In this document: positions 25,566 to 59,032 of the stretch, piece after piece
Layout of the letters: each line of letters starts with the position of its first letter
Numbering within the stretch: position 1 is the stretch's first letter
Assembly (NCBI RefSeq): GCF_016744025.1
Contig: NZ_JADGFC010000004.1
Span: 1 to 61,152, forward strand
DNA: 61,152 nt
Direction of reading: 5' to 3'
From: Sulfurimonas sp.
GTDB taxonomy: Bacteria > Campylobacterota > Campylobacteria > Campylobacterales > Sulfurimonadaceae
The notes under the pieces: generated by a model
Database searches by the model: none
The model's input: only the letters and a program-made list of their open reading frames with translations
Told to the model about the DNA's origin: nothing
Program-made: the position numbers and the translations under genes

Positions 25566-26318
25566 TTAGTCTGAAGTAGTTAATTTTTTAATAACATCCC
25601 AATTTTCTTTATAGTGAGGGATGTCTATTAATTTAATCTTTTGACAATCTTCAAAACTTAATAAATCAGCCCAAGACATTGGAACTATGTAACATATTCC
25701 TACTTGCTTATCTACAGCTACATAAATATCGCAATCCTCAGATGTAATTCTTTGTCCTATATTTCTTTCATGAGTATAGTCTATACCTTGACCCCCTCTG
25801 TCCCTATCTTTAAAGCTTATATTACTTCCTGTACTTATACCTTTAATCTGCACTCTTAAAAGCTTATTATTGTAGTCAATAATTGCGTCATATCTACTAC
25901 TACGTACATCGACACTACTACAATTAAACCCAGCTAATATCGCACGTGCTACAAATATAAATTCTGCACTATCACCGGCATTTGCCGTCATAACACCACT
26001 TTCTATATCATTTATATTTACAGGAAATCCATTAGTCATTGCAATATATAGTGACTTTTCAATAATATGTTTTAGTTCAGTTTTAATAAACTTAAATTTT
26101 TGTTGTTTTTCATCAGGTACTTTTGATGCAATGTCTTCAATATTTAAGTTTGCTAGCTCTTGTAAGTTTAAATCTTCTGCAATTTCTGAAAAGAACTTCA
26201 TACTGTAAAATTTTTTTAATTGAGCTTCTGTTAATCCATGTGAAAGAGCAATTTCTTTTACTTTACTTTTTACATAATTTTTATTTATTAGTTCCTGTAC
26301 TAATTCACTTTCATCCAT
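25566..26318 (-). CDS. PD-(D/E)XK-type restriction endonuclease (putative)
   Basis: A 250-residue protein. The C-terminal half has a nuclease-like core: SAEFIFVARAILAG (E119), RYDAIIDYNNKLLRVQIKG (D144, Q157, K159) and ICYIVPMSW. This resembles the PD-(D/E)XK fold of intron-encoded or restriction nucleases, with Gln in place of the usual acidic residue. The N-terminal 90 residues are helical, with ALSHGLTEAQLKKFY, possibly DNA-contacting. The open frame extends 34 codons upstream, but the ATG at 26318 is preferred since it overlaps the methyltransferase stop (ATGGATGA). Pairing with a methyltransferase makes it a likely type II restriction enzyme; specificity is unknown. Confidence 0.65.
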   Translation of the reverse strand: MDESELVQELINKNYVKSKVKEIALSHGLTEAQLKKFYSMKFFSEIAEDLNLQELANLNIEDIASKVPDEKQQKFKFIKTELKHIIEKSLYIAMTNGFPVNINDIESGVMTANAGDSAEFIFVARAILAGFNCSSVDVRSSRYDAIIDYNNKLLRVQIKGISTGSNISFKDRDRGGQGIDYTHERNIGQRITSEDCDIYVAVDKQVGICYIVPMSWADLLSFEDCQKIKLIDIPHYKENWDVIKKLTTSD

Positions 26319-27351
26319 ATTTAAGAGCTTCCTTGATTTTTTTTGCAATTTCAACAATAACAGGGACTGTAACAGAGTTGCCAATTTGTTTATATATATG
26401 TGAATTTGCAAGTTTATCACTTAAAATAAAAGTGTCATCATAGCCTTGAAATCTTGCACACTCTCTTGGTGTTAATTTTCTAATATCTTTTTTATCAATT
26501 ATTAAGGGAACATTATGACCACCAGTACCCATATTCGCAGTTAAAGTTGGACATAATTTACTTTTATTTTCTCTTACGTACACTCTTCTCCATTGATAAA
26601 TAGTATCTCTATTTTTCATTTCTTCTTTTAGTTGCTTGTAATATCTACTGTTTGTATAATAAAATTTTTCTTCTGCTTCATTATCTATCAAATCTTCTAT
26701 TTTCTTAGTTAATTTTTTTGGTTTAGGAAATTCAAAATTATTAAATATATTTTCGTCTTTAAAGCCAACAATATATATTCTTTCCCTATTCTGTGGCGTA
26801 TTTCCATATTCAGAGCTATTTAATACTTTACTTTTAACATGAAAGCCTCTATCCTTTAGTTCATTCAATATTCTTTTAAAGGTATTACCTTTATCATGTC
26901 CTTGCAAGTTTTTTACATTCTCTAAAAATATAATTTTTGGTTCTAAGTCATCAATAAATCTTAATATCTCAAAAAATAAATTTCCTCTATCATCTTCAAA
27001 CCCTTTTCTCTGACCAGCAATAGAAAATGCTTGACATGGAAATCCGCCTGTTAATATATCAATTTTTTCAACTTCACTTGTCTTTAAATCTTTTAAATCT
27101 TTTTCAAATAGTTTGTGTTTGTGGTTTGCTCTATAAGTTATCGCAGCATTTTTATCTATTTCATTAGCCCAAGAAATATCAAAGCCAACTTTTTTAAATC
27201 CCAATTCAATTCCACCAATACCTGCAAATAAACCACCTAAGGTTAGTTTTTTAACTTCTTTTTTTCTAATATCTGAATAAATTATTTTTGTCATATTTTT
27301 ATTTTCAGCACCAAAATCGAATAACATTTGTGAATTTATCATCTCTGTCAT
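26311..27351 (-). CDS. DNA (cytosine-5-)-methyltransferase
   Basis: A 346-residue C5 methyltransferase that uses SAM to methylate cytosine. Motif I is LFAGIGGIELGF (41-52), motif IV is GGFPCQAFSIAGQRKG with catalytic C106, motif VI is FLENVKN (142-148), and motif VIII is PQNRERIYIVGF. The target-recognition region carries QWRRVYVRENKSKLCPTLTA. Motifs IX-X are RKLTPRECARFQGY and YKQIGNSVTVPV. All catalytic parts are intact. There is an N-terminal extension of about 35 residues. AAAAGG eight bases upstream supports the start. It forms a two-gene operon with the nuclease; the recognition sequence cannot be read from this. Confidence 0.93.
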   Translation of the reverse strand: MTEMINSQMLFDFGAENKNMTKIIYSDIRKKEVKKLTLGGLFAGIGGIELGFKKVGFDISWANEIDKNAAITYRANHKHKLFEKDLKDLKTSEVEKIDILTGGFPCQAFSIAGQRKGFEDDRGNLFFEILRFIDDLEPKIIFLENVKNLQGHDKGNTFKRILNELKDRGFHVKSKVLNSSEYGNTPQNRERIYIVGFKDENIFNNFEFPKPKKLTKKIEDLIDNEAEEKFYYTNSRYYKQLKEEMKNRDTIYQWRRVYVRENKSKLCPTLTANMGTGGHNVPLIIDKKDIRKLTPRECARFQGYDDTFILSDKLANSHIYKQIGNSVTVPVIVEIAKKIKEALKYG

Positions 27352-27657
27352 ATATCAACCTTTTTATGCTTACTATATCCTTAGTTTTGATATCTTATAA
27401 TAAATTTGACAATTTGCAATATTTATTTTATTTACTTATTTTATCTTTTTTTTCTTGAACAGTCTGTTAAAAAGATTCTTTAAAGTATAAGGTCACTTTT
27501 TCCAGTAATCTATCTTATCATCATTAAGTATAAGTTTTTCTATAACATATAAATATATTTCAATCAAATCATGTGATATTTTATTTGCTTATTATCATAT
27601 GAAAAAATAGCACTAACTTTATTTGGCATAGAGATTTTTTTCCTTTTTCTTGTATAT
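27352..27657 (-). promoter_or_regulatory. Region between murG and the methyltransferase: promoter and gene remnant
   Basis: The minus strand has TTGCAA, 14 bases, then TATAAG (about 27399-27394), a plausible promoter for the restriction-modification pair. AAATTTGACAATTT at about 27403-27416 overlaps this promoter and is a weak inverted repeat. The part at 27493-27629 reads as a broken small gene, listed separately. Nothing else is seen. Confidence 0.35.
27493..27629 (-). pseudogene. Possible frameshifted small gene
   Basis: Starting at ATG 27629 the frame reads MPNKVSAIFSYDNKQIKYH then hits a stop. One frame over, it continues as HDLIEIYLYVIEKLILNDDK and on to a TGA at 27493. Together this would be a protein of about 45 residues. 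An AAGGA lies about 11 bases before the ATG. I do not recognise it, and with such AT-rich DNA the reading could be chance. Confidence 0.25.
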
Positions 27658-56169: not shown

Positions 56170-57030
56170 TTAAGACTCCAAAGAATAGAGAAGTTCTATC
56201 TCATCTTTCCAAATAGTATCATCTATAGTCTCAAGAATTAACGGAATATCATTCATCCTTTCATCATTCATAATAAATCCAAACGCATCTAAACCAATCT
56301 CCCCTTTTCCAAGAGAATGGTGTCTATCTTTTTTTGAACCTAATGGTGGTTTAGAGTCGTTTATATGCATTCCCATAAGATATTTAAAGCCTACAATATT
56401 TGCAAAATCATCCCATGTTTTATCGTAAGTTTGTCTTGTTCTTATGTCATAACCAGAGACAAACATATGGCAAGTATCTATACAGATACCAACTCTACTT
56501 TTGTCTTCTACCTTATCTATAATTTGTGCTAATTGCTCAAATGTATATCCTAGGTTTGTTCCTTGTCCTGCTGTGTTTTCTATAACAGCTTTGACTACAC
56601 TAGTCTTATCTAAAGCAATATTAATAGACTCAGAAACTATCGCTAAGCTCTCATCTTCACTAATAAGCTTTAGATGACTTCCTGGGTGAAAATTTAGTCT
56701 ATCTAGTCCAAGTTGATTACATCTATTAAGTTCATCAATAAATGCTTCTCTAGATTTTTCTAACTTTTCAGTCTCAGGATGTCCAAGATTAATAAGATAA
56801 GAATCATGAGGCAAAACATGTTTTGGCAGTATCCCACTATCATCAAGTGCACGTTTGAACTTATCAATTGTGTCTGCATCTAAATCTTTTGCAACCCATT
56901 GTCTTTGGTTTTTTGTAAATAGTGCAAAAGCTTTTGCCCCAATTTTTTGTGCATTTGTTACAGCATTAAAAACTCCACCGCTTGCTGAACAGTGTGCTCC
57001 TACAAATTTATTACTTTGTTTTTTGTTCAT
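56170..57030 (-). CDS. nfo: Endonuclease IV
   Basis: A 286-residue AP endonuclease (TIM barrel, three zinc ions) acting in base excision repair. The conserved motifs are [42 protein letters not shown] and [27 protein letters not shown] (in part). All metal ligands appear present. Its ATG overlaps the stop of the lipoprotein gene by one base (TAATG). Confidence 0.96.
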
Positions 57031-57497
57031 TAGTTTGTATCCTTGATTTTAAATATTATTTTATTTTTTGTATCTTTAAAATATATTAGATTTGAACTTA
57101 CTCTATACCTTATATTTACATCTTTATCTTCTATCTTTTGCTCAAAACCATCTTTTGTATAGACTCTATTTTTTTCATCATATATAGGAGTGCCTAAAAG
57201 TATATTTTGCAGTATGTCTGATGGATAAGAAGCATTTAGGAATTCTTGGTTAAAAGCACTTTTTGTCATACAACCTGCACTTGTGCATATAAGATGGTTT
57301 ATACTTATTTTTTCTATTGATTTACCTGCAGTAAAGAGTTCAAGTTCTATAGATTTTTGAGAGTTTCTTAAGTAAGCGACATCTCCAAACTTGATTTTTG
57401 GTGACTTAATTATGATAATTTTTGTTTGAGTTATTTCATAGTTTTTTATACTACAAGCAGTAAATAAAAGAGCAAATGCAATGAGTAAATATTTCAT
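57030..57497 (-). CDS. Putative lipoprotein
   Basis: A 155-residue protein with a lipobox (LFTAC, Cys at residue 15), so probably anchored to a membrane. It contains two further cysteines ([10 protein letters not shown]) that may form a disulfide in the periplasm. I do not recognise the family. The gene is directly after the 52-aa Cys protein and overlaps nfo by one base. Confidence 0.75.
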
Positions 57498-57656
57498 TTA
57501 GTTTTGAAGAAATTTACCACATTTTTTAACTTCTGAGCCATTCAACTCATGAATCTCACGAGAAGTACCATTTTTTACTATAGTCTGTCTTTTACACTCA
57601 TCTTTAGCTATACACTTCTCATTTACACAGCCGATATCTTCTGGAACTCTTGCCAT
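57498..57656 (-). CDS. 52-residue cysteine-containing small protein
   Basis: A short gene just ahead of the lipoprotein gene (stop next to its ATG). The protein has four cysteines: C10, C15, C21 and C46 (DIGCVNEKC, DECKRQ, KKCGKF), spaced as for a metal site. An AAGGAAT ribosome site lies nine bases before the ATG. It has a divergent promoter with the polymerase gene. Family unknown; likely a zinc- or Fe-S-binding small protein. Confidence 0.65.
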   Translation of the reverse strand: MARVPEDIGCVNEKCIAKDECKRQTIVKNGTSREIHELNGSEVKKCGKFLQN

Positions 57657-57691: not shown

Positions 57692-57744
57692 ATTATATCC
57701 ATAGTTTGACAATTTGTCATATATCAAAAATTAACTACTATAAT
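57692..57744. promoter_or_regulatory. Divergent promoters with shared palindrome
   Basis: Plus strand: TTGTCA (57714-57719), 19 bases, TATAAT (57739-57744), for the polymerase gene. Minus strand: ATGACA (57720-57715), 17 bases, TATAAT (57697-57692), for the small Cys protein. The 13-base palindrome TGACAATTTGTCA (57707-57719) covers both -35 elements, so one protein bound there could control both. Confidence 0.55.
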
Positions 57745-57760
57745 TTGTTAAGATAAAATT

Positions 57761-59032
57761 ATGAAAATACATATTGATATAGACTGCTTTTTTGTAAGTG
57801 CTGCTCGTATAAAAGATTCTTCACTTAAACAAAAGCCTGTTGCAATTGGCGGAAGAAGTGATACAAAGATTTTTAACCAAGATGCCAAGCAACAGACTGT
57901 AAGTTTTGAAAACTCAGGTTCTTTCGTACCTACTTTTTACAAGGCTTATGAAGATAAGGATGATGACCTAGATGCCTTTAAAGATGCAGATGGAAGAGTT
58001 AGAGGAATCTTAACAACCTCTTCATACGAAGCTAGAGCTTTTGGTGTTAAAACTGCTATGAGTATAAAAGAAGCCCTTGGACTTTGTCCAAACTTAATCA
58101 TAAAAGCGCCAAATATGTCACTTTATCAAAAACTTTCTCATGAACTTCATGAATTTTTACAATCAAAAATTCCACTTATAGAACAAGCAAGTATAGATGA
58201 GTTTTATGGTGACTTGTCAGGTTGGGTAGAAGATGATGAGATTGAACAGTTCATAGACAATCTCAGACACGAGATAAAAAGAGTTATAAAACTTCCTGTA
58301 TCAATTGGAGCAGCAAAGACTCGCTACATTGCTAAACTAGCTACAACATCTGCTAAACCATTTGGATGCAAGACTATATATCCACACCAACTAGATGAGT
58401 TTATAGAGCATATTCCCGTAGGTGAGTTTGCCGGTATTGGTAAAAGCATGAAAAGTAGATTTTTATCTGCGCAAATACACACTCTTGGTGATTTAAAAAA
58501 GAGACGTGGAACAGTTGAGTCTTGGAGTCCTTATGCAAAAGAGTTATACAAAAGAGTAAGTGGTCTCACAGATGCACCCATAGAGACAACGCACAGAAGA
58601 AAGTCAATCGGTATCTCAAGAACATTTGATCCTCTTCATGAGAGAGCTGAACTTAGACGAAGAGTACATGTTTTAACTAGACACTTGAGTTTTGCCATTT
58701 TAAAATTAAAGGTTATTCCAACTGTTTTCAGTCTTAGCATCTCTTATGAAATGAATCAAAGTTCTCATAAAAATTTATCTCTTGCTGAGATTTTTACAGA
58801 AAAAAAATTTGACTCACTTTGTCTTAACCTTTTTAACGAAGCAGACAATCAAAGAAGACTTCATGTAATTCGGCTGAGTATAAACTGTTCTAGCTTTACA
58901 AGAGACTCTAAAAAAGAGCTCTCCCTTATTGGTTTTAATGATGAGCAAAAGATGAAAAACTTAACGGATAAAACACAGATATTGAGGGAAAAATACGGGA
59001 TAGACGCATTAAAATGGGGTAGTGAACTATAA
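57761..59032 (+). CDS. Y-family DNA polymerase (DinB/UmuC-like)
   Basis: A 423-residue translesion polymerase. Catalytic acids are D6, D8 (HIDIDCFFVSAA) and D146-E147 (ASIDEFYGD). The steric and finger region reads TTSSYEARAFGVKTAMSI (85-102). Between GGR (32) and GILTT (82) there is an insert of about 45 residues rich in D, K and Q, not found in typical DinB proteins. SIGAAKTRYIAKLATTSAKPFG is the palm/thumb block. KELSLIGF near the C-terminus sits where the beta-clamp motif (QLSLF-type) is found. No ribosome site; the leader is about 10 bases. Confidence 0.88.
   Translation: MKIHIDIDCFFVSAARIKDSSLKQKPVAIGGRSDTKIFNQDAKQQTVSFENSGSFVPTFYKAYEDKDDDLDAFKDADGRVRGILTTSSYEARAFGVKTAMSIKEALGLCPNLIIKAPNMSLYQKLSHELHEFLQSKIPLIEQASIDEFYGDLSGWVEDDEIEQFIDNLRHEIKRVIKLPVSIGAAKTRYIAKLATTSAKPFGCKTIYPHQLDEFIEHIPVGEFAGIGKSMKSRFLSAQIHTLGDLKKRRGTVESWSPYAKELYKRVSGLTDAPIETTHRRKSIGISRTFDPLHERAELRRRVHVLTRHLSFAILKLKVIPTVFSLSISYEMNQSSHKNLSLAEIFTEKKFDSLCLNLFNEADNQRRLHVIRLSINCSSFTRDSKKELSLIGFNDEQKMKNLTDKTQILREKYGIDALKWGSEL

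Follow-up and report, generated by a model that had tools for sequence, protein, structure and literature searches.

A palindromic site at recA and further genes for DNA repair and DNA exchange of Sulfurimonas and its relatives very likely binds a LexA-like protein

A palindromic site in the promoter of a Y-family DNA polymerase gene of Sulfurimonas is, judging from comparisons between genomes, a control element that stands before recA and numerous other genes for DNA repair and DNA exchange, both in Sulfurimonas and in bacteria related to it. It very likely binds a LexA-like protein, and Sulfurimonas and its relatives probably have an undescribed DNA-damage switch of their own. The most far-reaching reading, to which we give a probability of roughly 0.4, is that an S24-family (LexA/CI-type) autoprotease acts as a dual regulator across Campylobacterota. 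From a site fixed at -48 it would activate recA, radA, comM and the genes for the Y-family polymerase, integron integrases and DNA methyltransferases, but it would repress its own gene. Leaving the sign of regulation aside, it is quite probable that the S24 protein regulates this repair regulon.

The site lies in a window of 61,152 nucleotides (the whole stretch of DNA analysed). Positions 57707-57719 form a perfect 13-base palindrome, TGACAATTTGTCA, around one central base, at the place where a previous, sequence-only reading had located it. This palindrome forms the centre of a longer, 17-bp site, TATGNCAANTTGNCATA, annotated here as the operator TTTGACAATTTGTCATA (57705..57721, no strand assigned). 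Downstream lies the polymerase gene (57761..59032, + strand), a predicted regulon member that encodes an IMS domain (Pfam IMS, 1.2e-41) and has orthologues genus-wide. Across the 2.93-Mb genome, TGACAANTTGTCA is found at just two places and TGNCAANTTGNCA at six. Scored with a PWM built from other promoters, the polymerase-promoter site ranks first in the window at 21.8 bits; the best score among 20 shuffled windows is 17.1, and one other window site scores near 21.8. Lack of conservation in relatives had been named as a ground for refutation, and the palindrome is kept at the polymerase beyond shuffled controls: with a PWM trained on 51 S24 promoters only, sites above the 99th percentile of dinucleotide shuffles occur in 61/68 polymerase promoters and 30/30 recA promoters of Sulfurimonas, where the counts within a class come from related sequences and so are not independent events, while the unrelated gene classes are independent. 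In most orthologous polymerase genes TKNCAATTTGNCATA lies ~50 nt before the start, despite a widely varying upstream neighbour. The pattern TGNCAANTTGNCATA is present in 105/120 genus genomes, and its reversed control yields 8 matches over all 120.

At 70 fetched loci, the genes flanking the sites were read blind to function. The targets that recur are recA, radA, recN, comM/YifB, S24 and the genes for the Y-polymerase, the integron integrase and C5 methyltransferases. Found singly are, among others, a comEA-like gene, recG, dam and the gene of a DNA-repair radical SAM protein. Family scans scored above cut-off for intI, YifB, RadA, Dcm, radical SAM and RecA, and returned fragments or scores below cut-off for RecN, RecG, RecQ and RmuC; gene names at site-bearing loci without a family scan are readings of N-terminal sequence. 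At three loci (L171, L179, L159), recN and a 243-aa gene sit 110-190 nt from the site; the DNA after the site is nearly identical in L159 and L171 and also resembles integrase promoters. A genome search for the palindrome near repair genes had also been suggested earlier. In the window's own genome recA carries a site (19.6 bits). Of the six TGNCAANTTGNCA sites in this genome, one stands immediately before an S24-family gene, and others precede radA and the gene for a large protein. The latter resembles a type I restriction-modification or N6-methylase protein, with no Pfam match in the 478 residues scanned. Two further candidates in this genome (C80 and C138) resemble chance and were rejected as regulon sites. 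The window itself holds a second operator, TTTGACAATTTGCAATA (27405..27421, no strand assigned; 20.5 bits), 53-54 nt upstream of the start of a gene for a 346-aa C5-cytosine DNA methyltransferase-like protein (26311..27351, - strand), which is named by sequence motifs and is a predicted regulon member. Its -10, TATAGT (27372..27377, - strand), stands at offset 27 from the operator. Methyltransferases of C5-cytosine type recur as targets in relatives, according to both site-neighbour reading and family scans. As in an SOS regulon, the operator precedes recA, the gene of the candidate regulator and additional genes of DNA repair. The earlier proposal of an operator tied to DNA repair is supported.

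Outside the genus, we refer to families by automatic labels (f4, f7, f10, f16, f18). In f7, which we guess from its placement to be Sulfurovum-like, ATTTCA-W-TTGAAAT sites precede S24, the polymerase, recA, recQ, rmuC, an integrase, methyltransferases, radical SAM and toxin genes. In f4, f16 and f18, few target sites were found beyond S24 and the polymerase, and recA there has no obvious site. A wide regulon in f16 and f18 defined by TTAACAANTTGTTAA was rejected: matches fall mostly at S24/polymerase or in coding sequence, and control matches are about as many in f16.

At the window's polymerase gene, the -10 element TAAGAT (57749..57754, + strand) starts 27 nt after the operator and lies 6 nt before the ATG, and TANNNT is found at the same offset in 38/42 polymerase promoters of relatives. 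With this spacing the site spans roughly -56 to -40, upstream of where any -35 could lie, and the short distance to the ATG makes the polymerase mRNA probably leaderless. Start codons 6-7 nt after the -10 are seen at polymerase, radical SAM, recQ and rmuC genes (window 57749-57761; L192, L222, L230, L240), whose mRNAs are probably leaderless. In Sulfurimonas recA, TANNNT starts 27 nt after the 17-bp site in 30/30 promoters, and all sites assigned to named non-S24 targets (38/38) have this spacing. When gene sides were taken blind to gene name, 45/67 had it against 4.6 expected, and most of the sides that lack it are either S24 or the partner side in a divergent pair. The same spacing occurs outside Sulfurimonas, at 11/11 recA sites and 4/5 polymerase sites, and at 23/36 targets in f7 and f10.

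The regulator's own gene is arranged differently. Sulfurimonas S24 promoters have TANNNT 29 nt after the site in 48/53 cases, with the site upstream of a clear -35; the own site falls between -35 and -10 in Arcobacter, and after the -10 in Sulfurospirillum and f7. A simple repressor usually has its operators at differing positions, and S24's own site does differ in this way. At the targets, the operator is not free to move relative to the -10, while at the regulator's own gene it varies between clades. The fixed target spacing suggests contact with RNA polymerase, perhaps activation, and its combination with free geometry at the own gene is the pattern expected of a dual regulator. Fixed spacing could also fit a contact-dependent repressor. 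Lambda CI at PRM, other fixed-site activators and PafBC-type promoters likewise combine a defined site with a constant distance to the -10. The present case shares this fixed distance, together with apparent repression of S24's own gene in several clades, but its site is centred near -48 rather than about -42, and activation is here a proposal.

The S24 candidate is encoded in the same genome at contig C182:3128-3784. Work on C. jejuni described the epsilonproteobacteria as lacking LexA, and no SOS response was seen (PMC2390758). The sequence-only reading had LexA generally missing from many Campylobacterota, and its absence is supported: 0/149 genomes of the order have a LexA above the TIGR00498 cut-off. 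The S24 protein itself scores 22.3 bits against a cut-off of 110.95, and a Pfam search with E up to 1 found no LexA DNA-binding family, so that a LexA-type winged helix was not detected. Instead, it carries a CI-type helix-turn-helix (Phage_CI_repr, PF07022, residues 26-72) and an S24 peptidase domain (PF00717, 1.2e-18). The Ala-Gly cleavage site (A97-G98), S139 and K176 are invariant in 27 and 31 aligned proteins, as in S24 autoproteases. An AlphaFold model (pLDDT 80.7) matches the C-terminal domains of LexA and CI with Z ~14 and rmsd 2.4-2.9 over ~120 aligned residues, indicating a LexA/CI-like fold, and its best Foldseek match is a lambda-186 hybrid repressor. A phmmer search of the PDB with the single protein gave no match, and an S24 profile search matched LexA/UmuD weakly. 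The sequence-only reading had expected a regulator of unknown kind, which agrees with an undescribed S24 regulator as the likely binder.

S24 matches were found in 84/90 genus genomes, a few of them weak or partial; the remaining 6/90 gave no match, though some carry sites. One genome rated 99% complete (G066, L371) has the polymerase operator, and searches found neither recA nor the S24 gene in it. As recA is missing too, assembly gaps play a part in the missing S24 genes, and in this genome a gap is the probable cause. S24 relatives appear in Sulfurimonas, Arcobacter, Aliarcobacter, Sulfurospirillum, Sulfurovum, Nitratifractor, Sulfuricurvum and Hydrogenimonas records, and phage-borne relatives in Campylobacter and Helicobacter have 31-37% identity. 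Further paralogues in the window's own genome (C135:747-1379 and C160:19717-20334; L369, L370) lie beside DNA methylase-like fragments and resemble prophage or island repressors.

We propose that the palindrome is the operator of the S24-family DNA-binding autoprotease from C182:3128-3784, a dimer of which would bind the 17-bp palindrome. Its regulon would consist of DNA repair and exchange genes, namely recA, radA, recN, comM, the Y-family polymerase, integron integrases and DNA methyltransferases. At S24's own gene, the site in several families is placed where binding would repress. At target promoters the site is held at about -48 and the -10 follows exactly 27 nt further on, which implies a stereospecific contact with RNA polymerase. 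RecA-stimulated self-cleavage of the S24 protein is the probable DNA-damage input. We infer the binder, the sign of regulation and damage induction from what is observed, namely motif, targets, spacing, gene linkage, catalytic residues and predicted fold. For the sign, we hold lambda-CI-like activation from the target site to be an even bet, slightly likelier than LexA-like repression from the same place. Activation by a regulator that is cleaved upon damage would turn repair genes off on damage, which is odd and counts against either activation or the cleavage input.

Alternatively, the S24 protein may be a plain LexA-type SOS repressor of all targets, with RecA filaments triggering its self-cleavage and DNA damage inducing the regulon, a serious contender that nonetheless stays short of even odds. 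The SOS-like regulon content, the invariant catalytic dyad and Ala-Gly site, and the place of the own operator, which in Arcobacter, Sulfurospirillum and f7 either separates the -35 from the -10 or closely follows the -10, all suit it, as do the precedents of HdiR, UmuDAb, the Bacteroidetes LexA-like proteins and FddR (PMC8565304, PMC13148647). Such a repressor does not readily account for target sites that hold to a single spacing at unrelated promoters and in different families and that lie upstream of the core promoter.

Whichever sign applies, the proposed system shares with LexA/SOS an S24 C-terminal domain, the Ala-Gly site and Ser-Lys dyad, a site at its own gene, and a regulon with recA, recN, the Y-family polymerase and the integron integrase; it differs in its CI-type N-terminal domain (PF07022), its operator sequence and the locking of targets at one spacing. 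S24 proteins that take the place of LexA are known from Streptococcaceae, Moraxellaceae and Bacteroidetes (PMC8565304) and from Francisella (PMC13148647). HdiR (Streptococcaceae), UmuDAb (Acinetobacter) and FddR (Francisella) are likewise non-LexA S24 regulators that replace LexA and are tied to error-prone polymerases, and FddR is divergent from its target genes, like S24 and the polymerase in several Campylobacterota families. Their regulons, however, are reported to be small, whereas recA, radA, comM, recQ, RmuC, integrases and methyltransferases are found here, and the FddR site, GTG-N11-CAC, differs from the Campylobacterota operator. The non-canonical LexA of Bacteroidetes is also a phylum-wide S24 regulator with a large repair regulon and clade-specific operators, but these are CTAA-N5-TTAG and GGA-N5-TCC, the phylum is another, and the consulted parts of that source (PMC8565304) note no position-locked layout. 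A term search for Campylobacter in PMC13148647 and PMC8565304 found no mention, and no earlier description of the S24 regulon turned up in the literature searched, most subscription papers being outside its reach. The Campylobacterota case would thus extend a known kind of S24 arrangement to another phylum, its operator being new, its regulon large and its promoter layout unusual. If correct, a regulon that puts recA under a LexA-like protein, with operator and promoter layout both defined, would revise the view of no LexA and no SOS for many Campylobacterota genera, and would explain how error-prone repair, integron integrases and the genes for transformation are controlled there. The fixed spacing would show the S24 regulator acting beyond simple blocking and, under dual regulation, the phylum's repair and DNA-exchange programme would be wired opposite to classical SOS. 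The question can be reduced to one protein and one DNA site.

Since recA, radA and S24 carry the site equally, a different regulator might bind the palindrome with S24 merely one of its targets. We regard this as unlikely in view of sites at the S24 gene in most clades examined, of gene linkage and of co-variation. The S24 gene is adjacent and divergent to the polymerase in 17 genomes, of other families or on second contigs (in G143 and G108 as a second copy), usually with a palindrome between them. These palindromes, TTAACAATTTGTTAA in f16 and f18, TTTCAATTTGAAAT in f7 and f10 and GAAATTGATAT in f4, mostly share a CAANTTG-like core. The recognition helix ISQMNFATMK goes with operator TGNCAANTTGNCA, the helices INHLTFATMK and VHQMTLATMK go with ATTTCAANTTGAAAT, and TPExxSxLK, found in both f16 and f18, goes with TTAACAANTTGTTAA. 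Judged by eye, operator and recognition helix change together, which, like the linkage, also speaks for S24 as the regulator of the regulon.

The sequence-only reading had the palindrome covering both -35 boxes of a divergent promoter pair and serving both sides. On the nfo side the overlap stands: the -35 ATGACA (57720-57715) lies inside the operator, 17 nt before the -10 TATAAT (57692..57697, - strand) of a promoter for a 52-aa Cys-containing protein (57498..57656), a lipoprotein distantly like the HP0838 family and below its curated cut-off (57030..57497), and nfo, deoxyribonuclease IV (56170..57030; NCBIfam equivalog above cut-off), all on the - strand. These genes are neighbours, the first probably not a regulon member. 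On the polymerase side it fails, the site being upstream of any -35 position; TTGACA or TTGTCA as -35 there would stand 27 and 19 nt away from the TATAAT at 57739, and was rejected given the relatives' -10 at offset 27. An operator shared by, or kept for, the polymerase and the nfo operon is decidedly unlikely. Among 30 lipoprotein/nfo loci scored for a site within 420 nt, copies linked to the polymerase keep it (8/9), but unlinked operons mostly lack it (2/21 with a site), the site stays with the polymerase when the neighbour changes, and the 27-nt spacing here is on the polymerase side only. The site thus belongs to the polymerase, and at linked loci any effect on the nfo-side promoter may be incidental.

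That the palindrome arose by chance and has no function is of negligible probability. Short palindromes are common in AT-rich DNA, two-mismatch matches in the window are at chance level, and an exact-pattern count in the window alone was uninformative, but conservation beyond shuffled controls, the pattern in 105 genomes, the PWM rank and the spacing excess show that the palindrome is real.

Some polymerase genes depart from the common arrangement. A subset (L017, L020, L025, L027, L033, L061) carries GTGTATAAAAAAGTGTATAATA-like repeats close to the start, which in most of these genes is TTG or ATT, and in two genomes with such repeats (G031 and G004) the usual palindrome lies ~140 nt upstream of the polymerase. 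In another genome (G067, L009), an ORF like the Cas9 N-terminus adjoins the polymerase, ~400-1090 nt upstream on the minus strand.
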